Source: Paraburkholderia azotifigens (lineage in GTDB: Bacteria; Pseudomonadota; Gammaproteobacteria; Burkholderiales; Burkholderiaceae). Taken from it: a stretch of 64,000 bases of DNA. Location: NCBI RefSeq assembly GCF_007995085.1, contig NZ_VOQS01000003.1, positions 2,108,001 through 2,172,000 of the forward strand, read 5' to 3'. Position 1 is the first letter of the stretch; every line of letters begins with the position of its first letter. The position numbers and the translations under genes were made by a program. The notes under the pieces are model-generated. The model saw only the letters and a list, made by a program, of their open reading frames with translations. It ran no database searches and had not been told where the DNA came from. Below are positions 10,977-39,172 of the stretch, piece after piece.

Positions 10977-13046
10977 TCAGACGGCCGTCATGCGTTCCTG
11001 AAGCAGTTCGCTGAACGCGTCGGCCGTGAGCGGCCTGCCGAGCAGGAAGCCCTGCATTTCGTCGCATTGCAGGTCCTTGAGCTTGTCGAGTTGCGAGGCC
11101 GTTTCGACGCCTTCCGCGACCACGTCCATTTCCAGCGAGTGCGCGAGCGCGATGATCGCCTGCACGATCGCGCTGCCTTCGTGACCGTCGGCATCGAGCC
11201 CGCTCGTGAAGAAGCGGTCGATCTTCAGCTGCTTCACGCGGAAGCGCTGCAGATAGGCGAGGCTCGAATAGCCGGTGCCGAAGTCGTCGATCGAAATCTC
11301 GAAGCCGCTGTTCTGGAACTCGCGGATCATTTCCGTCGTCTTCGCGGCGTCCTGCATCGCGACCGTTTCGGTGATCTCGAACATGATCTGGCTGCAATCG
11401 ACGCCTTCCGTGTGCACGATCTCCAGCGTCTTCGCGACGAGATCGGGCTGCGTCATCTGACGCGGCGACAGATTGATCGCGACTTTCATCGTCGGCAATC
11501 CCGACGCTTCCCAGCGGCGGATCTGCCGGCACGTCTCGCGCACGACCCAATAGCCGATCTGCACGATCTGCCCCGAGCGTTCCGCGATCGGGATGAAGTC
11601 CATCGGCGCGAGCACGCCGATCTCCGGGTGATTCAGGCGGATCAGCGCTTCCGCGCCTGCCACCTCGCCGCTGTCGCCGCGGAACTTCGGCTGGAAGTGC
11701 AGCGAGAAATAGTGCTTGCTGAGCGCTTCATGCAGCGCGCTCTGGATCTTGAGCGTGCGCATCGCGGCTTCGTTCATGTGCGCTTCGAAGAAGCGGTAGG
11801 TGCTGCGGCCGCCGCGCTTCGCTTCGTACATCGCGGCGTCGGCGTGCTTGAGCAGTTCGTCGACGGAGTGGCCGTCCTGCGGATACAGCGCAATGCCGAT
11901 GCTCGGCATGACCTGCAACGTCTGGCTTTGCGTCTCGATGCCCTTGCGCATTCTTTCGAGCACGGCTTCCGCCATCTTCTCGGCGTCTTGCGGCGCGCCG
12001 AGATTTTCGGCCAGCACGACGAACTCGTCGCCGCCGAGCCGCGCGACGGTATCGACGTTGCGCACGCATTGGCGCAGGCTGTGCGAGAACGACTTCAGGA
12101 CTTCGTCGCCGAATGCGTGGCCGAGCGAATCGTTGATCGTCTTGAAGCCGTCGAGATCCATGAACAGGATCGAGAAGCCCCGGCCGTCGAGCTTCGACGC
12201 GTGAATCGCGCGCTCGATGCGCTCCGTCAGCGTGAGGCGGTTCGGCAGATCGGTGAGCGTGTCGTAGGTGGCGAGGCGCACGATCTGGTTGTTCAGCAGC
12301 GATACGGAACCGGTGAGGAAGGTCGTGCGCGCATCGAAGCGCGACAGGATCAGCGTGACGATCAGAATCGCAAAGGTGAACAGGACGATGGTCGTCGCGA
12401 GCCATTGCGCGTTGACGCCGCGCGCCGCGCCGCACACCGAGCCGGGCAGGAAATCGGCAGCCGCCATGCCCGTGTAGTGCATGCCCGTGATCGCGAGTCC
12501 CATTACGCACGCTGCGCCGATGCGTTTGAGCAGCACGCGATGCTGGTTCGAGTCGCGCAGCGTGTGCGCGATCCACAGCGCGGCCATCGAAGCCGCAATC
12601 GCAATCGCGATAGAAGCGACGAAGAGTCCCGGCCGATACCGAATGCCCGGCTCCATTTGCATCGCGGCCATGCCCGTGTAGTGCATGCCGGCGATGCCGA
12701 AGCCCATCAGCACGCCGCCCGTGACGAGACGCTGAATGGAGAGCTTTGGACGCGCCACCTGGAAGAGCGCGAAGTACGACACGATCATCGCGATGCCGAG
12801 CGAGTAGCCGGTGATCGCGAAGTCGTAGCCGAGGGGAATCGGCAGCGAGAAGGCAAGCATGCCGATGAAGTGCATCGACCAGACGCCCGTGCCCATTGCC
12901 GCTGCGCCGCCTGCGAGCCAGAGGTGGCGCAGGCGTGCCGATGCCATTGTCGAAATACGTCCGGCCAGGTCGAGCGCCGTGAATGAAGCTAGTGTTGCGA
13001 CGGCGAGCGACACGACAACCAGACCCAGATTGTAAGTGCTCTGCAT
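10977..13046 (-). CDS. MHYT sensor-GGDEF-EAL cyclic di-GMP signalling protein
   Basis: A 689-residue membrane protein. About 250 N-terminal residues form the seven-helix MHYT sensor, with motifs MHFIGM, MHYTGM and MHYTGM near residues 58, 121 and 193, thought to bind metal and sense small gases. GGDEF follows with an intact RLGGDEFVVL, then EAL with EALIRL and the downstream IDDFGTGYSSL loop. Both catalytic signatures are intact, so it could make or break cyclic di-GMP; the net direction cannot be told from sequence. It converges on the bactofilin operon, with its stop 19 bp from the bactofilin stop. Confidence 0.93.
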   Translation of the reverse strand: MQSTYNLGLVVVSLAVATLASFTALDLAGRISTMASARLRHLWLAGGAAAMGTGVWSMHFIGMLAFSLPIPLGYDFAITGYSLGIAMIVSYFALFQVARPKLSIQRLVTGGVLMGFGIAGMHYTGMAAMQMEPGIRYRPGLFVASIAIAIAASMAALWIAHTLRDSNQHRVLLKRIGAACVMGLAITGMHYTGMAAADFLPGSVCGAARGVNAQWLATTIVLFTFAILIVTLILSRFDARTTFLTGSVSLLNNQIVRLATYDTLTDLPNRLTLTERIERAIHASKLDGRGFSILFMDLDGFKTINDSLGHAFGDEVLKSFSHSLRQCVRNVDTVARLGGDEFVVLAENLGAPQDAEKMAEAVLERMRKGIETQSQTLQVMPSIGIALYPQDGHSVDELLKHADAAMYEAKRGGRSTYRFFEAHMNEAAMRTLKIQSALHEALSKHYFSLHFQPKFRGDSGEVAGAEALIRLNHPEIGVLAPMDFIPIAERSGQIVQIGYWVVRETCRQIRRWEASGLPTMKVAINLSPRQMTQPDLVAKTLEIVHTEGVDCSQIMFEITETVAMQDAAKTTEMIREFQNSGFEISIDDFGTGYSSLAYLQRFRVKQLKIDRFFTSGLDADGHEGSAIVQAIIALAHSLEMDVVAEGVETASQLDKLKDLQCDEMQGFLLGRPLTADAFSELLQERMTAV

Positions 13047-13993
13047 GTCAGTTCCGTCGCGAAAGGAAAGTCCCTCAACTGGTTATCGGCAGCATTATTC
13101 AAATGTTGAGCAATTTTTTAAAGGGGGCATTCAAAATTTATTGAAGCATCTTTGAAGCCGCTTTCAGGTTTTTTGAAGCATTTTATCGGCGTGTAATTGC
13201 CTGTGAGGTATTCCGCAGACGATTGCACGCCGTTCAACGGTATCACTCAGGGTTGTTGTTGCACTTCTGTTCAGGCGCTTGCTTCCTGCATTTGGAGCAG
13301 GGAGTGGATCGTGCCGCGCGTTGCGTCATTGCAATGCGGGCTCGCGCAATAGCCGACGAATAGTGTATCGGCCGGATATTCGCGTAATTTAGATCCGGTA
13401 ATGTTCCGATGCGGCGGATTGGTCGCGCGAGGATTGGCGGCGGGTAGGGCGCTGACGACGGATAGAGCCGCACATTGATGTGTGGCGAGAGCAGGGCCTG
13501 CTACTTCATTGCGATCGTCGGGTGGGGACCGCTAACCATATCGGCGCGGATCGAGGGCGGAAACGCATCCGGGCTCATTTGCCGGATTGCTCCGTGCCAT
13601 TCGGGGCTGGACCGTATGCGGCGTTTGCGTTGGCTTCCGACAAGTGCACAGAGTTATCGCCCTATGACGGAAGGCTTAGATTCTCTTCCCTGAGAGCCGT
13701 CTATGGTTAAGACGTGCGCTCTCCTTTTACGCACCGGGCTTACTGGCCCACTGGCGGTTCTTTAGGTGCTTCTGTCTCCTTGGACGCCAAGCGCGGACTC
13801 ACCGCGTTACGTTTTCTTCGCTTGCGCCGATAGAAGGGCGAAGTCAAAAAACGATGCTCCCGCAACCGCGTTTCCACACCAGGCGGAATCGCCGGCCACG
13901 TATTTCGTGACGCGACGCCGGCCTCTTCGCCCATTCCCAGCGTCATACCGGCAGCAAGAACCGAAGTCGGATTTTCTCTTGAAGGAGTTGGCC
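13047..13993. other. Long intergenic region, AT-richer near the GGDEF-EAL gene
   Basis: These 947 bp contain no frame I can support; the open frames around 13475-13710 have no family features. The section at about 13090-13200 is clearly AT-richer than its surroundings and holds three TTGAAGC repeats. The rest probably carries the promoter of the small exported protein at 13994. Confidence 0.55.
13141..13179. promoter_or_regulatory. Three phased TTGAAGC direct repeats
   Basis: TTGAAGC occurs at 13141-13147, 13152-13158 and 13173-13179, spaced 11 and 21 bp, about one and two helical turns. The cluster is 95-133 bp upstream of the GGDEF-EAL start, a plausible site for cooperative regulator binding. 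Confidence 0.35.
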
Positions 13994-29343: not shown

Positions 29344-30156
29344 TCAGGCGATCGCCCGTACATCGGCCTGTTTCGCGCCCGTCATGATGGCGACGGCATC
29401 CGACATGTGAATGTCGTTCTTGTTCACGAGCGCCGCGCGCCGTCCAAGCCGCTGAATGTGGATACGGTCCGCGATCTCGAACACGTGCGGCATGTTGTGA
29501 CTGATCAGGATCACGGGCAGGCCGCGGTCGCGCACGCGACGAATCAGTTCCAGCACCATGTTGCCTTCCTTCACGCCGAGCGCCGCCGTCGGTTCGTCGA
29601 GAATCACCACGTGCCGCGCGAATGCCGCACTGCGCGCTACCGCCACGCCCTGGCGCTGGCCGCCCGACAACGTTTCGACGGCCTGACGCATCGACCGGAT
29701 GCCGATCTGCAAGTCCTTCATTGCATTGGTCGCTTCCTCGAGCATGCGGCGCTTGTCGATCATCTTGAAGATCTTGCCGCGCCAGCCCGGCTTCACGAGT
29801 TCGCGTGCCAGAAACAGGTTCTCCGCGATGCTCATGGCAGGCGCGACGGCGAGATCCTGATAAACGGTTTCGATGCCTTGCTGGCGCGCGTCGAGCGGGC
29901 TGCGGAACTTGACCTGTTTGCCGTCGAGCAGCAGTTCGCCTTCATCGGGCACGAGCGCGCCGGAAAGCGCCTTGATCAGCGACGACTTGCCCGCGCCGTT
30001 GTCGCCGATCACGGCCATGATTTCGCCCGGCATCACTTCGAAGTCGCAGCCGTCTAGCGCGGTGACCTGGCCGTAACGCTTGATGAGTCCACGCGCCTGC
30101 AGAACGGCCGTCTTGCCGTTGGCGCCGCCGTTGGCGGAAGAGGGGGATGTCGACAT
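29344..30156 (-). CDS. Sugar ABC transporter ATP-binding protein (single-domain, FrcA-like)
   Basis: A 270-residue ATPase powering the adjacent permease. Walker A GDNGAGKSSL (51-60), signature LSGGQRQ and Walker B VVILDEPTAAL are intact. It has one nucleotide-binding domain, unlike the two-domain RbsA/XylG type, as in the FrcA fructose system. Start at 30156 (MSTSPSS) follows GAAGGAG. It sits 23 bp after the permease gene. Fructose, ribose or another monosaccharide is possible; substrate inferred only from the FrcA resemblance. Confidence 0.9.
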   Translation of the reverse strand: MSTSPSSANGGANGKTAVLQARGLIKRYGQVTALDGCDFEVMPGEIMAVIGDNGAGKSSLIKALSGALVPDEGELLLDGKQVKFRSPLDARQQGIETVYQDLAVAPAMSIAENLFLARELVKPGWRGKIFKMIDKRRMLEEATNAMKDLQIGIRSMRQAVETLSGGQRQGVAVARSAAFARHVVILDEPTAALGVKEGNMVLELIRRVRDRGLPVILISHNMPHVFEIADRIHIQRLGRRAALVNKNDIHMSDAVAIMTGAKQADVRAIA

Positions 30157-30179
30157 GACAGGCTCCTTCGAATATCTGT

Positions 30180-31169
30180 TCAACGTGCGCCACGGCGCGA
30201 CAGCTTGTCGGCGGCGACTGCGAGAATCACAAGAACGCCGGTGATCAAAACCTGGTACACCGACGACACACCCATCAACGTCAGGCCATTACGAAACACG
30301 CCGACGATCAACGCGCCCAGAAGCGTGCCCGCAATCGAGCCGCGTCCGCCGAACAGACTCGTGCCGCCCAGCACGACTGCCGTGATGCTGTCGAGGTTCT
30401 CCGTCTGACCCGCTTGCGGATCGCCGACGCCCGTGCGAGACACCGACAGCAGCGCGGCAATGCCGTAGATCGCGCCCGACAGCGTGTACACGGTGATCAG
30501 AATGCGTTGTGCGGAAAGGCCCATCAGGCGTGCGGCTTCGGGGTTGTTGCCGAGCGCGTAGAGGTGGCGGCCGGGCACGGTGTCGCGCAGCACGAACCAC
30601 GTGGCGAGATACATCAGCAGCGTAAGCACGGTGCCGTACGTCACGGTGGCCGGTCCGAGATTGAAGGTGTTGCCGAAGAACATGATCGCGTCGGGCAGAT
30701 TCGATACGCTCTCCGCGTTCGAATAAATCTGCGTGACGGCGAATGCGATGTTCAAGGTGCCCAACGTGACGATGAAAGCGGGCAGCTTGATGCGCGTGAT
30801 GAGCACGCCGTTGAGCAGGCCGAACAGCGTGCTCGCGCCGACGCCGCAAATGATCGCGAGCACGGGCGGCACGCCCATCACGACGGCGAACTTGGTCATC
30901 ACGATCGAGCCGAGCGCCATCACCATCCCGCACGACAGATCGATGCCGCCCGTCAGCACGATCAGCGTCTGGCCGATCGCGATGACGGCGACCACCATCG
31001 TCTGCTGCAGGATGAGCGACAGATTCTGGAACGACAGAAAGCGGCTGCTCTGCGAAATGAAGAAGATGCACGCGAGTACGAGTGCGATCAACGGGCCCGC
31101 TTCGGCAAGCGTCGGCAAATGATCCGCGAACCGGCGGTGGCTTTGAGCGGGAACGGTGGGAGTCGACAT
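30180..31169 (-). CDS. Sugar ABC transporter permease (RbsC/FrcC type)
   Basis: A 329-residue inner-membrane protein of the BPD_transp_2 family with about ten hydrophobic segments. The hallmark stretch TLIVLTGGIDLSCGMVMALG (residues about 67-86) is the RbsC/FrcC permease signature, and NPEAARLMGL is the coupling loop to the ATPase. It forms the pore for the transporter encoded with the downstream ATPase and the upstream binding protein. Confidence 0.92.
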   Translation of the reverse strand: MSTPTVPAQSHRRFADHLPTLAEAGPLIALVLACIFFISQSSRFLSFQNLSLILQQTMVVAVIAIGQTLIVLTGGIDLSCGMVMALGSIVMTKFAVVMGVPPVLAIICGVGASTLFGLLNGVLITRIKLPAFIVTLGTLNIAFAVTQIYSNAESVSNLPDAIMFFGNTFNLGPATVTYGTVLTLLMYLATWFVLRDTVPGRHLYALGNNPEAARLMGLSAQRILITVYTLSGAIYGIAALLSVSRTGVGDPQAGQTENLDSITAVVLGGTSLFGGRGSIAGTLLGALIVGVFRNGLTLMGVSSVYQVLITGVLVILAVAADKLSRRGAR

Positions 31170-31245
31170 GATGTGTTTCCTCGAAACATCGCGTGATAGG
31201 CGCGCGGCAGGTGCGAGACCGCCGCGCTCACGCTGGAGAACTGGC

Positions 31246-31270
31246 GGAGATGCGCGCCATGCGCATCTCC
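31246..31270 (-). terminator. Hairpin between binding-protein and permease genes
   Basis: Perfect 10-bp inverted repeat GGAGATGCGC/GCGCATCTCC around GCCAT, about 70 bp after the binding-protein stop. There is no strong T-run, so it is more likely an mRNA-stabilising or partial-termination hairpin keeping the binding protein more abundant than the membrane parts. Confidence 0.45.
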
Positions 31271-31339
31271 TTCACTGCATGCTTGCTACTGGTTGTTGCC
31301 TGGGTTGTTGCCTGATTACTGCGTGATGCGTTACCGCGC

Positions 31340-32368
31340 TTACTTGTTGCCCCAACAGTTGTCGAGGCCGAACTTCGTGTCCTTGCTGTCGACGCCGTTT
31401 TGCGGCTTGTCGGTGATCAGCGTGACGCCCGTGTCGTGATAGCCGGTGGCCTTCTTGCCCGTCTTCGCGTACTCGACGCCTGCTTCGACGCCAAGCGACG
31501 CCATCTTCAGCGGATACTGCTGCGACGTCGCGGCGATCGCGCCTGCCTTCACGTTGCGCACGCCTTCACAGCCGCCGTCGATCGACACGATCATCACGCT
31601 CTTGTCCTTGCCCGCGCTCTTCAAGGCGCGATACGCGCCCGCCGCTGCCGGTTCGTTGATGGTGTAGACGACGTTGATGTCGGGCGACTTCTGCAGGCAG
31701 TTTTCCATCGCCGTCTGGCCCTTCGACTGATCGCCCCGCGTGTCCTGGCTGCACACGATCGACGGGTCGCCTTCCTTCACGCCAAAGCCCTGCAGGAAGC
31801 CGTTATGACGCAGCACGCCGACGGAGACGCCGGGCGCGAGGTCGAGCGTCGCGATCTTCGCGGGCTTGCCGCCAAGTGCCGCCTTCGCGTACTGGCCGAT
31901 CAGCACGCCTGCCTTGAAGTTGTCGGTGGCGAAGAGGGCGTCGGTTGCGTCCTGCGGTTCCGTCGGCGTGTCGAGCGCGATCACGAGTGCGCCTGCCGCG
32001 CGCGCTTTCTTGATGCTCGGCACGATCGCCCTGGTGTCGCTCGGCGTGATCAGGATCGCCTTCGCGCCTGCCGTGATCATGTTTTCGATCGCCGTGACCT
32101 GCGCCGCGTTGTCGCCGTCGAACTTGCCGGCCGCCGTCAGCAGCTTCGCGCCGTCTTTCTGTGCGGCGGCTTCCGCGCCTTGCTTCATCTTGACAAAGAA
32201 CGGATTGGTGTCCGTCTTCGTGATCAGGCCGACGATGGGCTGATCGGCGGCGAGACTCGTGCCCGCGCACCACAGCGCGGACGCCGCGATACACGCAGCA
32301 GCGATGCCCTTCGCGACGGGCTGAATGTGAGACGTGCGACGCAGTGGCCTGCGGGAAATGGGGTTCAT
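31340..32368 (-). CDS. Sugar ABC transporter periplasmic binding protein (FrcB/RbsB type)
   Basis: A 342-residue Peripla_BP_4 protein. The signal peptide (about 1-41, ending SLAADQP) precedes [21 protein letters not shown], the usual N-terminal ligand-cleft strand. [15 protein letters not shown] is the hinge/ligand region near the C-terminus. It is the first gene of a binding protein-permease-ATPase-ROK operon. A GGAG lies upstream of the ATG at 32368. The FrcB subgroup is the best guess. Confidence 0.9.
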
Positions 32369-33999: not shown

Positions 34000-36390
34000 A
34001 TGACCATCCGTCACCGCATCACTTTACTGGTGGTGTTGATGCTGGTCGCCTTGTCGGCGATCGGTGGATACGCTGTCTATCAGACTCGCGGCAGTGCCGC
34101 CGACGTCAGGCAGGTCACGCAAGGCGTCGTGCCGAGCGCGCTGGCGTCTGCCGATCTCGTCTCGCAGGTCAAGGACGTGCAGCTCGCGACCATGACGCTC
34201 GTCTACGCGCCCGACGCGAACATGGTCGAGCAGGCGCAGAAAGAACTCGCCACGAAAGAGAAGTCGCTGCGCGAAGCACTCAATGTGCAGGCCAAAGCCG
34301 CGGCGAGCCACGCGCAGGAAGGGCTCGTCACGCAGGCGCGCGACAGCCTCGCGAATTACTTCTCCGCGATCAACGACACCGCGAAGATGAAGGCCGAAGG
34401 CAAGAACGACCTTGCGCAGGCCTATCTGTTCGCGAACGTCGCGCAGTACCGCGACGAACTGGAAGGCATCGTCGAAACGCTGCGCATCGAAAAGAACCGC
34501 CAGAAAGACGAAGCAATCCACGCGCTCAATACGGGCCTCGCGACGACGACGACGGCCATCGGCAGCGCGTCAGGCGCAGCGATTCTGGTGCTGATCGCAA
34601 TCGGCTTGCTGCTGTATCGCCAGATCACGCGTCCGCTTTCGCACATGCAGGTCATGATGAGCGAGATCGCATCCAGCCAGGATTTCACGCGCCGTGTGCC
34701 CGTGGGCCGCATGGATGAAATCGGCCATTCGATCGTCGCGTTCAACGGCATGATCGAGAAAATCCAGCAAAGCTCCGCGCAGCTCAAGCAGAAGACTGCC
34801 GACATTCAGGCGATGTTGCAGAACATGCAGCAGGGCATTCTGACGGTGGTCGAAGGCGCGGTGATCCACTCGGAGTACTCTGCGTATCTCGAAGCGATCT
34901 TCGAAACGAAGGACATTGCGAATCGCTCGCTGATGGATCTCGTGTTCGCCGACTGCGATCTGGGTTCGGATACGGTATCGCAAGTGGAAGCGGCCGTACT
35001 TGCGTGCATTGGCGAAGACAGCATCAACTTCGAATTCAACCAGCATCTGCTCGTCAACGAATTGACGCGCAAGATGCCCGATGGCCGCGACAAGACGCTC
35101 GACCTGAGCTGGTCCGCGATCACCGACGAAAGCGACACCGTGATGCGCCTGATGCTGTGCGTGCGCGACGTGACGGAGTTGCGCCAGCTTGCCGCCGAAG
35201 CGGGCGAGCAGAAGCGCCGCCTTGAAATGATCGGCGAGATTCTCGCGGTCAACGAAGAGAAGTTCCATCACTTCGTGGACAGTGCGACGGGCTTCATCAA
35301 CGAGAACGAACGCATCATTCGCCAGCATACGCAGGCCGACGGGCCGGCCGTTGCCGAACTGTTCCGCAATATGCATACGATCAAGGGTAATGCGCGCACG
35401 TATAGCCTTCAACATCTGACCAGCATCGTTCATGAAACCGAGCAGCGTTACGACGCGCTGCGCCGCCCCGAGTCGGCGCACGAGTGGGATCAGGAGCAGT
35501 TGATGGCCGAACTGGAGCGCGTGAAAGAAGCGCTTCAGCATTACGCGACAATCAACGAAGTGAGCCTCGGCCGGCGCAAGGCCGGGCCTGTCGGCAGCGC
35601 GGAACGCTATCTGGTGGTGGACCGCGAGCACATTCAGGAAAGCCTGCGCCTGCTCGACGCAGCGAATCCCGCCGACATGCGCGACCTGCTGACGGCGCGC
35701 GATTCGGTGCGCAGAACCTTACGGCTGCTCGGCACGGAGAAGGTCGAAGACGCGCTCGCGGGCGTGCTGCAATCGTTGCCGTCGCTTGCCGCCGAACTCG
35801 GCAAGGCGGCGCCTGCCGTGCGCATCGACGACAACGGCTATCGCCTGCGCACGCAGGCGGGCGCCACGCTGAAGAATGTATTCATGCACCTGCTGCGCAA
35901 TTCCGTCGATCACGGCATCGAATCGATCGAACAGCGCGCCGAACTCGGCAAGCCGGAAGCGGGCGTGATCGATATCGAAGTGGGCGTCGCGGAAGGCGCG
36001 TTGCAGATCACGCTGAGCGACGATGGACGCGGCCTCGCGCTGTCGCGCATTCGCGGGATCGCAGCCGATCGCGGCTGGCTGCAGCCCGATTCGCAAGTGA
36101 GCGACGAAGCCGTGGCGGAGTTGATTTTCCGTCCTGGCTTCTCGACGGCGCAAAACGTGACGGAAGTGTCGGGCCGCGGCGTCGGCATGGACGCAGTGCG
36201 CGATTTCATCAAACGGGAAGGCGGCCGCATCGAATTGCGCTTCACGGACGATCACGCGGGAGCGGACTTCCGCCAGTTCCAGACGATTGTCTATCTGCCG
36301 GAAAACTGCGCGGTCGACAGCGTCGGCACGTCGATGGAAGACGCCGCGATAACCGTGAGTTCGATTCAGGCGAACGCACATTTCGAATAG
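34000..36390 (+). CDS. Membrane sensor kinase with HAMP, PAS-like, Hpt and CheA-type HATPase domains
   Basis: A 796-residue hybrid of a chemoreceptor-like sensor and a CheA-like kinase. Membrane helices at about 8-24 and 188-206 frame a helical-bundle periplasmic sensor, and HAMP follows (207-260). A PAS-like stretch (270-395) precedes a histidine phosphotransfer domain with His459 in NMHTIKGNART. The ATPase has the CheA N box HLLRNSVDHGIE (Asn634), DDGRGL and GRGVGMD. There is no CheW-binding P5 domain: the protein ends about 30 residues after the ATPase. The start at 34000 (MTIRHRITLL) gives the proper first helix. It heads a four-gene cassette with MCP-like, CheX-like and CheY-like genes. 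Confidence 0.85.
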   Translation: MTIRHRITLLVVLMLVALSAIGGYAVYQTRGSAADVRQVTQGVVPSALASADLVSQVKDVQLATMTLVYAPDANMVEQAQKELATKEKSLREALNVQAKAAASHAQEGLVTQARDSLANYFSAINDTAKMKAEGKNDLAQAYLFANVAQYRDELEGIVETLRIEKNRQKDEAIHALNTGLATTTTAIGSASGAAILVLIAIGLLLYRQITRPLSHMQVMMSEIASSQDFTRRVPVGRMDEIGHSIVAFNGMIEKIQQSSAQLKQKTADIQAMLQNMQQGILTVVEGAVIHSEYSAYLEAIFETKDIANRSLMDLVFADCDLGSDTVSQVEAAVLACIGEDSINFEFNQHLLVNELTRKMPDGRDKTLDLSWSAITDESDTVMRLMLCVRDVTELRQLAAEAGEQKRRLEMIGEILAVNEEKFHHFVDSATGFINENERIIRQHTQADGPAVAELFRNMHTIKGNARTYSLQHLTSIVHETEQRYDALRRPESAHEWDQEQLMAELERVKEALQHYATINEVSLGRRKAGPVGSAERYLVVDREHIQESLRLLDAANPADMRDLLTARDSVRRTLRLLGTEKVEDALAGVLQSLPSLAAELGKAAPAVRIDDNGYRLRTQAGATLKNVFMHLLRNSVDHGIESIEQRAELGKPEAGVIDIEVGVAEGALQITLSDDGRGLALSRIRGIAADRGWLQPDSQVSDEAVAELIFRPGFSTAQNVTEVSGRGVGMDAVRDFIKREGGRIELRFTDDHAGADFRQFQTIVYLPENCAVDSVGTSMEDAAITVSSIQANAHFE

Positions 36391-36406
36391 CACGACGGGG
36401 ATAGTT

Positions 36407-37147
36407 GTGGTCGATCAGTATGTGATTGCGGCAGCAGTGGCGGGCAGCGCAGTGGGCGCGCTTGCGGCTGTGCTCGCGCATCGTTGGTGGTACGGGAAAA
36501 GGGCGGTTGCGTCGCAGACGACGGCGCTCGACTCGCAGAACAAGGCACTCGAGCTTGTCGAAGAACGTCACGCCGCCGAGATCCGGCAGCACGAGCAGCA
36601 GGCGCGCGAACTGCACGCGCTCGTCGAGACGTTGCGCGACGATGTGGCGGAGCAGTCCGTGTCGGCGGAAGACGCGCGCGCCGCATTGAACGCGCTGCAG
36701 GCGCAGAAGGACGAATGGCTGCAGCAGGCGACGCGTCTTTCAGCGGAAGCAGGGCGTCTGCGGCATCTGTCGGCCACGTTCGAGCGCTGGCACGAGCAGA
36801 TGATCTCGCTGATGGCGCAGAACCACGACATGCATTCGAAGAACAATGAGTTGTCGTCGATCGTTCGCCATGTGCTGATCGTGTCGCTGAATGCGTCGAT
36901 CGAAGCAGCGCGTGCGGGCGCGGCGGGGCGCGGATTCTCGATCGTCGCGAGCGAAGTGCGGACGCTCGCGGCGCGCTCGCAGGAATTGTCGAAGAGCTAT
37001 CACGACAGCCTGAACCGCAACGACCTCATCACGACGGCGACGTTTCAGGACATTCAGGCGGGCGGCAAGATGATCGCTGCTTCGCTGGCAAGCGTGGAAT
37101 CGCTTGCCGGTCAGATTCAATCCCGGTTAGAGCAGGCGACCACGTGA
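36407..37147 (+). CDS. Short methyl-accepting-chemotaxis-like signalling protein
   Basis: A 246-residue protein with one N-terminal membrane helix (about 5-25), a long coiled coil (40-115) and a chemoreceptor-type hairpin tip (ASIEAARAGAAGRGFSIVAS, residues 163-182, then EVRTLAARS). No ligand-binding or HAMP domain. In canonical receptors the tip reads EAARAGEQGRGFAVVA; here the second Glu, used in receptor trimer contacts, is Ala. The start is GTG at 36407. The stop overlaps the next start (GTGA), so the two are coupled. Perhaps an adaptor between kinase molecules rather than a receptor. Confidence 0.8.
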   Translation: MVDQYVIAAAVAGSAVGALAAVLAHRWWYGKRAVASQTTALDSQNKALELVEERHAAEIRQHEQQARELHALVETLRDDVAEQSVSAEDARAALNALQAQKDEWLQQATRLSAEAGRLRHLSATFERWHEQMISLMAQNHDMHSKNNELSSIVRHVLIVSLNASIEAARAGAAGRGFSIVASEVRTLAARSQELSKSYHDSLNRNDLITTATFQDIQAGGKMIAASLASVESLAGQIQSRLEQATT

Positions 37148-37683
37148 TCAGTCAGCAAGCGAAAGACAGTATCGAGCGGATCTTTCTTCATTCGGCGCGC
37201 ACGCGTTTGCCCGTCGATTCCGGCGACGCATGCGATCTCGCACCCGTCGATGCACAGCATGCGAATCAGGCGCTTGCGGCCCATGTCGTCGTTCTGACCA
37301 TCTCGTCGATCTCATTCCGCCTTCTGCTCGTGCTGCATTTCGACGACGATCAGACCACGCGCGACTATTACTTGCGCGAGTCGGAAGACAGGTTGCTGGC
37401 GGAAGCCTTGATGGAAGTCGGCAATCTGTGCTGTGGCGCAATCAACCAGAAGATGGTCGAGTTCTTTCCGGACCTGGGCATGTCGACGCCTTATCCGTTG
37501 AGCGGCGCGTGCGTGCCTTATCTGACGGAGTTGAAGCCGGACTATCTGGCGGCCTTTCGCGTGAGCATCGGCGCAAACGTACAACTCGGCGCGACGCTGT
37601 GCGTGTGCGCGAGTTCGCCCGTCGATTTCGTCGCGCATATCGACGAGGCAGAAGAAAGCACGGGCGAACTCGAACTCTTTTAA
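37144..37683 (+). CDS. CheX/CheC-like phosphatase
   Basis: A 179-residue protein. EALMEVGNLCCGAINQKM (87-104) matches the CheC/CheX active-site helix: family consensus D/S-x3-E-x2-N-x22-P aligns to Glu87-x3-Glu91-x2-Asn94, with prolines at 116 and 118 near the expected place. Thus it is a candidate phosphatase for the CheY-like protein encoded next. Only one such helix is present, as in CheX. The GTG start at 37144 overlaps the preceding stop by 4 bp. Confidence 0.72.
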   Translation: MISQQAKDSIERIFLHSARTRLPVDSGDACDLAPVDAQHANQALAAHVVVLTISSISFRLLLVLHFDDDQTTRDYYLRESEDRLLAEALMEVGNLCCGAINQKMVEFFPDLGMSTPYPLSGACVPYLTELKPDYLAAFRVSIGANVQLGATLCVCASSPVDFVAHIDEAEESTGELELF

Positions 37684-37765
37684 CGCTTTGGCGCTCTTCT
37701 GACGCAATGCGCAGAGAGCCTGTTTTCAATGAATGCGCCGCACGAAAGGCGCTACGGGGTGAGCA

Positions 37766-38131
37766 ATGGCGAAGGTTCTGGTAGTAGATGATTCGAGCAC
37801 GGTCCGCGATGAAGTCGCGGGCTTCTTAAGGAAGAACGGTCTCGACGTCGATACGGCCGTCGACGGCAAGGACGGTCTGGCGAAGCTAAAGGCGTCGCCG
37901 GGCATTCGTCTCGTGGTCAGCGACGTCAACATGCCGAACATGGACGGCTTGACGATGGCCGAGAAGATTCGCGGCGAACTGGCCAACGCGAGTGTCAACA
38001 TCATCATGCTGACGACGGAAAGCAGTCCCGCGATGAAGGAACGGGGCAAGGCAGCAGGCGTGAAAGGCTGGATCGTGAAGCCGTTCAAAGGCGACGCCGT
38101 GCTCGAAACTTTCCGCAAGCTGGCCAGCTAA
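37766..38131 (+). CDS. CheY-like single-domain response regulator
   Basis: A 121-residue receiver without output domain. Phospho-acceptor Asp53 in VVSDVNMPNMDG, acid pocket Asp8/Asp9, Thr83 in MLTTES and Lys105 in IVKPFKG are all present, so it should be phosphorylated by the kinase at 34000-36390 and dephosphorylated by the CheX-like protein. An 82-bp gap precedes it. Its target is unknown: no flagellar or pilus gene is nearby. Confidence 0.92.
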   Translation: MAKVLVVDDSSTVRDEVAGFLRKNGLDVDTAVDGKDGLAKLKASPGIRLVVSDVNMPNMDGLTMAEKIRGELANASVNIIMLTTESSPAMKERGKAAGVKGWIVKPFKGDAVLETFRKLAS

Positions 38132-38596
38132 AGGTAGTGCACGGCAATGGCCGGGCTGTCGCGTCGGGGGCGCGGCAGCCCGGTTTGCTTTTGGAAGCTG
38201 TGCTTCACTGCGATGCTGCATGAATTGGCCGGACCTTTGCTCAAGCGCCGCCATTAGGATAAAAGAAGCGGTGGATATGAATTTTTATGTTTTGGCATCG
38301 TTTGGCCATCGACTCTCTGAAAAGCGCAGTCCAATACTCTATTCTTCCATTAGGCCGGTGCATTCTGACGCCGGAAGCGAAAAAAGTCTTATGGATAGCG
38401 TGAGTAGTTGGATATTCAACGCGGATGCAAGCCTTTTGACATTTACTGTGTTCCATATGAAAACCGGTATGGACGGCCGTGCCGCCGTCCCCTCAGGACA
38501 ATGGAGAGAGCACGTCTTTTCATGTAATAGTTGAACTCTAGCCATATATGACCGGTCCATGGCATAGTGCCGGTATCTTCAATCAGGAGTTTCAAT
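38132..38596. other. AT-richer intergenic region upstream of the H-NS-family gene
   Basis: This 465-bp stretch is visibly richer in A+T than the surrounding genes, especially 38230-38590, and likely contains the promoter of the following H-NS-family gene, perhaps autoregulated. A 104-codon frame crosses it but shows no family match, poor codon bias and overlapping minus-strand frames, so I do not call it. Confidence 0.5.
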
Positions 38597-39172
38597 ATGG
38601 CGACACTCGAAGCACTTCAGGCAAAGATAAAAAAGCTTCAGGCCGAGGCAGAAGCCATCCTGTCGAAAAAGTCGACGGCTGCGCTCGAAAGTATTCGCGC
38701 GCTGATGGCAAAGCACGATCTGACAACTGCCGATATCGACGCGCATCTCGGCCATAAAAAGCGTGGCCGTCCTTCGCTGAAATCGGCAGGCGTGCAGAAG
38801 AAAGGCGTCGCGAAATATCATGATCCGAAAACGGGTGCGACGTGGACAGGGCATGGCCGCGCGCCTGCCTGGATCGCGAGTGTGAAAGACCGTTCGAAGT
38901 ACCTGGTTGCTGGCGCATCGGAAGCGGCTGCGACGCGCGTTGCCGTGAAGCACGGGACGGGCAATGGCCAGCCCAAGGGCCCGCAACCCGCGAAGTATCG
39001 TCATCCCGAAACGGGCGCAACGTGGAGCGGCCGTGGTCCGGCGCCCGCGTGGCTCGCAGGCGAGAAAGACCGCAATAAGTTTCTGATCGCCGGCGCGCAT
39101 GCTGCGGGCATGAATGGCGTTGGGCGCAAGAAGACGGCAGCCGGCAAGGCAGGAAGAAAAGCACGCGCCTAA
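38597..39172 (+). CDS. H-NS-family nucleoid protein with two DNA-binding modules
   Basis: A 191-residue H-NS-type protein. Residues 1-50 form the coiled-coil oligomerisation part (LEALQAKIKKLQAEAEAIL). The usual C-terminal DNA-binding core occurs twice: KYHDPKTGATWTGHGRAPAW (about 77-96) and KYRHPETGATWSGRGPAPAW (about 135-154). Most H-NS proteins have one, about 100 residues overall. Basic linkers and a KKTAAGKAGRKARA tail add DNA contacts. AGGAG lies 7 bp upstream of the ATG at 38597. It probably silences AT-rich DNA; the doubled module might bridge duplexes within one chain. Confidence 0.9.
   Translation: MATLEALQAKIKKLQAEAEAILSKKSTAALESIRALMAKHDLTTADIDAHLGHKKRGRPSLKSAGVQKKGVAKYHDPKTGATWTGHGRAPAWIASVKDRSKYLVAGASEAAATRVAVKHGTGNGQPKGPQPAKYRHPETGATWSGRGPAPAWLAGEKDRNKFLIAGAHAAGMNGVGRKKTAAGKAGRKARA

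Follow-up and report, generated by a model that had tools for sequence, protein, structure and literature searches.

A chemosensory-like cassette with a receptor-kinase fusion, an MCP-like stub and a CheX-fold phosphatase in Paraburkholderia azotifigens and its relatives

Can the core of a chemosensory system, consisting of a kinase, a CheY and a CheY phosphatase, work as a unit of its own without CheW? This question is raised by four co-directional genes in a stretch of 64,000 nucleotides from the 9.7 Mb genome (5 contigs) of Paraburkholderia azotifigens (contig NZ_VOQS01000003.1, positions 2,108,001 to 2,172,000). This whole stretch is called the window, and its positions are used for all features given below. 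The genes, at 34000–38131, encode a sensor kinase, a short protein resembling the signaling domain of methyl-accepting chemotaxis proteins (MCPs), here called the MCP-like stub, a CheX-fold protein (CheX1) and a CheY-like response regulator (pLDDT, predicted local distance difference test score):

34000..36390, + strand, sensor kinase (Pfam domains, profile comparison, AlphaFold2 model)
36407..37147, + strand, MCP-like stub (MCPsignal 58.6 bits, cut-off 34.6)
37144..37683, + strand, CheX-fold phosphatase CheX1 (fold of the model, E91 and N94)
37663..37680, + strand, codons for the GELELF tail at the C-terminus of CheX1 (residues 169–179 with pLDDT under 50)
37766..38131, + strand, CheY-like single-domain response regulator (Response_reg 84.1 bits)
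38149..38185, + strand, terminator-like hairpin of 17 pairs, directly 3′ of the CheY gene (consensus scan)

An earlier note on this DNA had described a cassette of a fusion kinase with H459 and N634, an MCP-like stub, a CheX with E91 and N94 and a CheY with D53, and this observation was confirmed. From its sequences, the cassette is predicted to work like the kinase-CheY-phosphatase core of a chemosensory system. It probably forms a self-contained phosphorelay of chemosensory parts which manages without CheW, with the stub as a partner of the phosphatase and the tail of CheX1 as a docking peptide. The co-occurrence of the partners across loci supports the proposal of the note that this CheW-free core is kept as a module.

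The sensor kinase and its relation to CheA

The kinase starts with a four-helix bundle (4HB) sensor between two apparent membrane spans, which is followed by a HAMP domain, a PAS-like region, an Hpt/P1 domain with H459, short P3-like helices and a CheA-type P4 ATPase with N634 and a GRGVGMD box. The 4HB sensor, HAMP, Hpt (PF01627, 31.5 bits) and HATPase_c were detected by Pfam, and both H459 and N634 are kept in all 20 aligned kinases (alignment A7, 20 of the 29 kinases found). The AlphaFold2 model (mean pLDDT 80.1, predicted template modeling score 0.37) exhibits short P3-like helices and a PAS-like fold at about residues 279–390. Together with weak Pfam matches below the cut-off in relatives, this secondary structure suggests a PAS-like domain, although PAS is not found among the VIA-align rows.

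The profile built from 20 relatives aligns with CheA in P1 and in a continuous P3-P4 stretch (E 2.8e-46 for that stretch against E. coli CheA, 6s1k), and ends where P4 ends. For the window kinase, in which 26 residues follow the ATPase, no match to CheW/P5 was obtained. All 29 kinases end 3–39 residues past the P4 profile, whereas 128–281 residues follow in 14 CheA proteins of the same genomes, lengths that include a bit of P4, as the profile match stops there 12–23 positions before the profile end. These 14 were the full matches among 20 stretches tried as CheA; L103 gave a partial match and L090, L093, L101, L102 and L105 gave none, at least the stretch of L102 having been taken from the wrong side. 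The claim that the kinase has no CheW-binding domain was thus borne out. In a midpoint-rooted P4 tree, a branch with 100/100 support separates the 29 kinases from the other sequences.

The cassette kinase therefore resembles CheA in its Hpt domain with HxxKG, its continuous P3-P4 match and its GRGVGMD box, but differs from it by the lack of a P5/CheW domain and by the membrane sensor fused in front. In a survey of 13,673 CheA proteins the CheW domain was counted in 100% (Berry et al. 2023, PMC10782961), so that the cassette kinases would fall outside this census, as far as the accessible part of the survey tells. An ordinary CheA which recently lost P5 in a single genome and stands alone there, without partner genes, would also have ATPase, P3-like and Hpt parts that match CheA best. 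Yet this idea is already contradicted by the 29 kinases without P5 forming one group and by the co-occurrence of their partners, and it appears extremely improbable.

The sensor part of the kinase differs in L014–L018, L047, L050, L055 and L057. In one Aquabacterium locus (L017:2780-10935) a single set of stub, CheX1, CheY and REC-CheX2, the last being the product of a fifth gene described below, is flanked by two cassette kinases whose sensors differ, being helical in one and of the 7TMR-DISM type in the other; this arrangement is read as an exchange of sensors while the core is shared. Members of one genus have a frame of about 1080 residues that begins about 90 nt 3′ of the CheY gene and ends in the kinase core (L055:3398-6640, L057:9595-12843). 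Its sensor part is longer and different, and in L053:3-1427 the contig ends inside this frame. An internal stop interrupts the kinase frame of L014:787-3231; the gene may have decayed, the sequence may be in error, or the start may have been placed too far upstream. The ligand-binding domain of the citrate/malate receptor MCP2201 shares 14–15% identity with the kinase sensor; as helical bundles match easily, no ligand is deduced from this likeness.

The MCP-like stub, CheX1 and their coupling

The stub comprises an apparent N-terminal membrane anchor, a coiled coil and an intact hairpin turn (EAARAGxxGRGF), of which N162, E166 and R169 are invariant in all 24 aligned stubs (alignment A6, 24 of 30). 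It thereby shares the MCPsignal hairpin with the signaling domain of MCPs, but it contains neither a periplasmic sensor nor a HAMP domain, its arms are short and unequal, and the tip is followed by a signature of its own, NDLxTxxTFQDxQA, a strongly conserved surface. In addition, the FQTN patch before the tip, which we take to be the contact site for CheW and the receptor trimer, is absent in 24/24 stubs, with K or R at the F position in 21 and V, L or I at the N position in 22 of them; the window stub reads RHVL. In the MCPs of the window genome FQTN was found in 18 of 19 readable sequences (20 of the 31 MCPsignal matches were fetched, one being not readable). L157 (G000:C1:981613-982074), an MCP of canonical length from this genome, reads RQTH instead. 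The earlier note had emphasized an E-to-A exchange in the tip of the stub; while the MCP-like stub itself is real, the telling change is the loss of the patch before the tip.

As the kinases have no P5 and the stubs no FQTN, CheW coupling seems to be lost in the cassette, judged by these sequences. A search of the whole window genome for CheW domains gave none in the window; the nearest lies about 0.48 Mb away on contig C3 and all others on C1 and C5. Neither was a cheW seen within the cassettes, nor does one lie at cassette coordinates among the CheW matches listed. CheR and CheB were not seen by eye among the open reading frames (ORFs) round the cassette, a domain search not having been aimed at them. 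The 18 genomes tested all contain CheW, however, and with the invariant turn and the full-length MCP without FQTN it is conceivable that the stub enters ordinary chemoreceptor arrays via its intact turn and links the kinase to CheA/CheW signaling. The replacements at the F and N positions, set against the FQTN of nearly all readable MCPs, and the lack of cheW at the cassettes render this improbable.

CheX1 is predicted to fold as CheX, with the E-x-x-N pair E91 and N94 on one helix (85–104) and conserved in all 25 aligned rows (alignment A5, 25 of 31 CheX1; L011, L015, L019, L048, L056 and L061 are out). The CheX structures of T. maritima, B. burgdorferi and V. vulnificus share about 12–17% identity with CheX1. 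In contrast to these, CheX1 adds a conserved GELELF-type tail, and most relatives of the cassette hold a second phosphatase gene, in which a pseudo-receiver is fused to another CheX domain (REC-CheX2). The tail is found in both kinds of phosphatase: 30 of 31 CheX1 end in G-x-[LM]-E-x-F, and all 18 REC-CheX2 with their end inside the contig, including that of L051 behind an internal stop, finish with G-x-L-[ED]-x-F. The exception among CheX1 is the orphan of genome G677 (L061:8154-8609), a relative without cassette and without tail. As residues 169–179 are disordered in the model, folding is probably not the reason why the tail is conserved.

A search of 18 chosen genomes for the exact codon pattern of GELELF and its close variants gave 23 matches, spread over 17 of them; by comparison of coordinates all 23 lie on CheX1 or REC-CheX2 genes, one being a second copy of REC-CheX2 in G445 outside the cassette. 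Over 346 genomes of the order, 19 matches were obtained in 15 cassette genomes and 7 in 6 of the 331 others; these seven were rejected as CheX tails, as their frames are unlike CheX genes and one ends in Trp instead of a stop. Since the tail belongs to these two phosphatase types alone, they may well share a partner, for which it may serve as docking site. An analogous case is CheZ, which binds CheY by a C-terminal helix. The N-terminal MISQQAK of CheX1, considered as a FliM-like CheY-binding peptide, was dropped, as it forms the start of the first CheX-fold helix in the model; it is invariant in an alignment of 12 rows, but not in that of 25. A phage origin was likewise discarded, with no match of CheX1 among phages.

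The gene order is most rigid where stub and CheX1 meet. The stub lies directly upstream of CheX1 in 30/30 loci, the only pair kept in all of them, with a distance of ≤6 nt in 25 and an overlap of 4 nt in 14; in the window, too, the CheX1 start and the stub stop overlap by 4 nt. REC-CheX2 followed by CheY is kept in the 18 loci holding both, whereas the kinase has no fixed place: it precedes the stub, REC-CheX2 or CheY, or it follows CheY. In the relatives a script set the ORF starts of stub, CheX1, REC-CheX2 and kinase, not always correctly, so that several intergenic gaps are artefacts: the apparent distance of about 1.7 kb between CheY and kinase in L055 and L057 belongs to a single long kinase frame, and negative gaps between CheX1 and REC-CheX2 reflect starts set too early. 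From this gene order we infer a phosphatase unit (stub and CheX1) and a CheY unit, which are fed by exchangeable sensor kinases.

As the stub adjoins CheX1 throughout, its function may lie with the phosphatase and not in a bundle with the kinase. The role of a bundle scaffold, which the earlier note had assigned to the stub, is hence only one option. A stub that bundles with the HAMP/coiled-coil region of the kinase and acts as its scaffold or allosteric activator, replacing the receptor-CheW-P5 linkage, would fit its place after the kinase gene in 19 loci, the loss of the CheW-facing parts from both proteins and the conserved surface after the tip. It is a less likely role, as kinase and stub are not neighbors in L018, L051, L052 and L055–L060, while stub and CheX1 never part.

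In the preferred reading, with the stub as partner of the phosphatase, a signal would be detected by the periplasmic four-helix bundle of the kinase and possibly by its PAS-like domain. The HAMP domain would set the autophosphorylation of H459 by the CheA-type ATPase, and the phosphate would pass from H459 to D53 of CheY, from which CheX1 could remove it by means of E91 and N94, as its fold and residues suggest. The stub, translationally coupled to CheX1, would be a membrane-anchored partner or regulator of this phosphatase and not a CheW-coupled receptor, in line with the gene coupling and the loss of FQTN. The flexible GELELF-type tail would dock to a partner common to both phosphatases, most simply CheY. 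Phosphorylated CheY would act on a diffusible target, for which the flagellar switch is a plausible, weakly supported candidate.

Distribution, the fifth gene and the surroundings of the cassette

Stub and CheX1 were found together in 30 loci, 28 of which also hold kinase and CheY. They range from Paraburkholderia to Aquabacterium and include one genome outside the order. When the window proteins were compared by tblastn with 13 named loci, the gene order was seen to recur, as the earlier note had suggested to check: it is the same in seven Paraburkholderia/Burkholderia loci, with kinases 91–96% and CheY 96–100% identical to those of the window, and six Aquabacterium-type loci hold diverged sets (kinase 52–55%, CheY 80–82% where present), of which L019 is without both at a contig end. 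Among 399 genomes of the order, 17 were matched by the CheX1 profile. Sixteen of these matches cover the whole or nearly whole profile and have cassette genes around them (in G692 the kinase core is cut off by the contig end), and the seventeenth is the orphan of G677. In 398 genomes of the phylum 11 were matched, 5 of them in full length, including the window genome and G003 outside the order; six partial matches of profile A1 with 19.7–23.2 bits in this sample were not counted. The kinase also occurs in records of a plasmid collection (0.7–3.5 Mb; four from Burkholderia, two from Caballeronia, one from Ideonella), and all five proteins were matched in the two of these loci that were read (B. 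cenocepacia, B. stagnalis).

In the fifth protein, REC-CheX2, the N-terminus is receiver-like but without acceptor Asp, and the C-terminal part is a CheX domain, which passed the Pfam CheX cut-off in all three scanned sequences (28.3–37.8 bits). Its gene is present in 19 of 30 loci, 3′ of CheX1 or of the kinase, and in 19 of the 22 outside the close group of the window. Strong matches were obtained in 12 of the 399 genomes of the order, all among the 16 with a cassette (nested overlap, p 6e-20), a nesting that is favored by the profile (A4, 14 of 19 REC-CheX2) having been built from loci found via CheX1. The count leaves out six partial A4 matches of 19.4–24 bits from this sample, among them one in G736, which also has a full match. 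One sequence query and a profile search gave no REC-CheX2 in the window genome, and it is also absent from G482, G667 and G705. As G322, a genome of the same genus, holds REC-CheX2, the window cassette appears to be a reduced form. The four-gene composition given in the earlier note is therefore true for the window, but it is not the usual one: of the 16 cassette genomes in the order sample, 12 have the fifth gene. The second REC-CheX2 of G445 (L083/L128, G445:C14:51278-52240), at a distance from the cassette, is diverged and ends in GELEFF. The internal stop in the REC-CheX2 of L051:1751-2722 reflects either a decayed gene or a sequencing error.

Of the surroundings, the 17-pair hairpin behind the CheY gene is the longest of four terminator-like sites in the region (the remaining three have 5 pairs each); shuffled sequences gave a mean of 5.2 sites. 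Further 3′, at 38600–39172, lies an H-NS-family gene with two Histone_HNS stretches, which is kept, as far as seen, only in the near loci L007–L013. As it is present in these seven loci only, it was rejected as a member of the module. Upstream of the cassette, ORFs of a sugar-type ATP-binding cassette transporter set (ATPase, permease, periplasmic binding protein) were recognized by eye on the minus strand (29344–32368). A recurrent neighbor gene hinting at the output was not found in the flanks by eye; a domain scan of the neighbors was not made.

Output and standing of the cassette

The residues D8, D9, D53, T83, W102 and K105 of CheY are conserved in 29/29 sequences, W102 being at the position of Y106 in E. 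coli. Over 12 loci, the mean pairwise identity of CheY is 78% (kinase 46%, stub 47%, CheX1 34%, REC-CheX2 49%), a comparison made with the cassette partners only. FliM was found in 18/18 genomes tested, G003 included. Within the order, all 16 cassette genomes contain FliM compared to 267 of 399 overall (p 0.0014 by genome, 0.017 by genus), a modest enrichment, with statistics that ignore genome size and relatedness. According to one report, the Y106W variant of E. coli CheY is hyperactive, whereas V. cholerae CheY4, with its natural Trp, fails to bind FliM (PMC3774744). A motility suppressor of V. cholerae is reported to carry mutations in fliG and in a gene of the CheX family (PMC8789113).

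The flagellar motor as output is therefore a predicted lead only, with weak support. The claim that no motility genes are near fits the window cassette, beside which none was noticed by eye, but all 18 genomes tested are FliM-positive and full-length MCP genes were noticed near the cassettes of L048 and L054, and only there. By eye, the kinase of G225 has an MCP-like frame at a distance of about 3 kb (L048:14005-15744), and in G434 (L054:5900-6205, 11509-13143) a short PilZ-like ORF adjoins CheY and an MCP lies beside the kinase. Phosphorylated CheY may well act elsewhere, on adhesion, pili or gene control, or be a phosphate sink, an alternative with a chance not far below even. Besides the lack of motility genes at the window cassette and the behavior of CheY4, it is favored by the CheY-like FlmD of Comamonas, which acts via SoxR on biofilm (PMC8880074, in its accessible part); FliM in all cassette genomes of the order and in G003 and the hyperactive Y106W variant speak for the motor.

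Several points weigh against the reading of the cassette as a CheW-free phosphorelay with a regulated phosphatase. CheX1 scores 12.9 bits for Pfam CheX, below the gathering cut-off of 27 bits (the relative in L047 reaches 16.6 bits). The differing sensor parts imply that a single input cannot be general, and the RQTH of L157 shows that an MCP of canonical length, too, can be without the patch. With two other CheA and six CheW domains in the window genome, cross-talk is possible. The restricted CheY comparison, the modest FliM enrichment and the failure of CheY4 to bind FliM add to these points on the side of the output.

An identity with the Flm pathway of Comamonas testosteroni, considered at first, was rejected. 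Flm is likewise a second chemosensory-like pathway in Burkholderiales with a CheY-like output and no CheR/CheB, but, according to the accessible part of its description, it has the CheW-like FlmC and the receptor FlmB and belongs to the type IV pili (Tfp) class (PMC6391922). Neither a CheW-like FlmC nor a PilJ-type receptor of the Flm/Tfp pathway was found in the cassette. A description of the module was not found in the open-licence literature, a search which left most subscription papers uncovered. Lacking the defining CheW and P5 features, the cassette is classed neither as CheA nor as a canonical chemosensory system. Whether it represents a separate, array-free chemosensory class, in which receptor and kinase are one protein, CheW is absent, an MCP hairpin has turned into a phosphatase regulator and two phosphatases share a private docking tail, is a speculative and at present rather doubtful proposition. 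If true, control in this class would lie in regulated dephosphorylation, exerted via the receptor-like stub; no such wiring turned up in the literature searched.

A conserved family that keeps Hpt, P3-P4, the MCP hairpin, CheX and CheY while missing the parts that face CheW would show the scope of the chemosensory core without arrays. The shared tail of the phosphatases offers a specific candidate docking motif which is testable, and the cassette could serve as a simple test bed for the action of an MCP hairpin without CheW.

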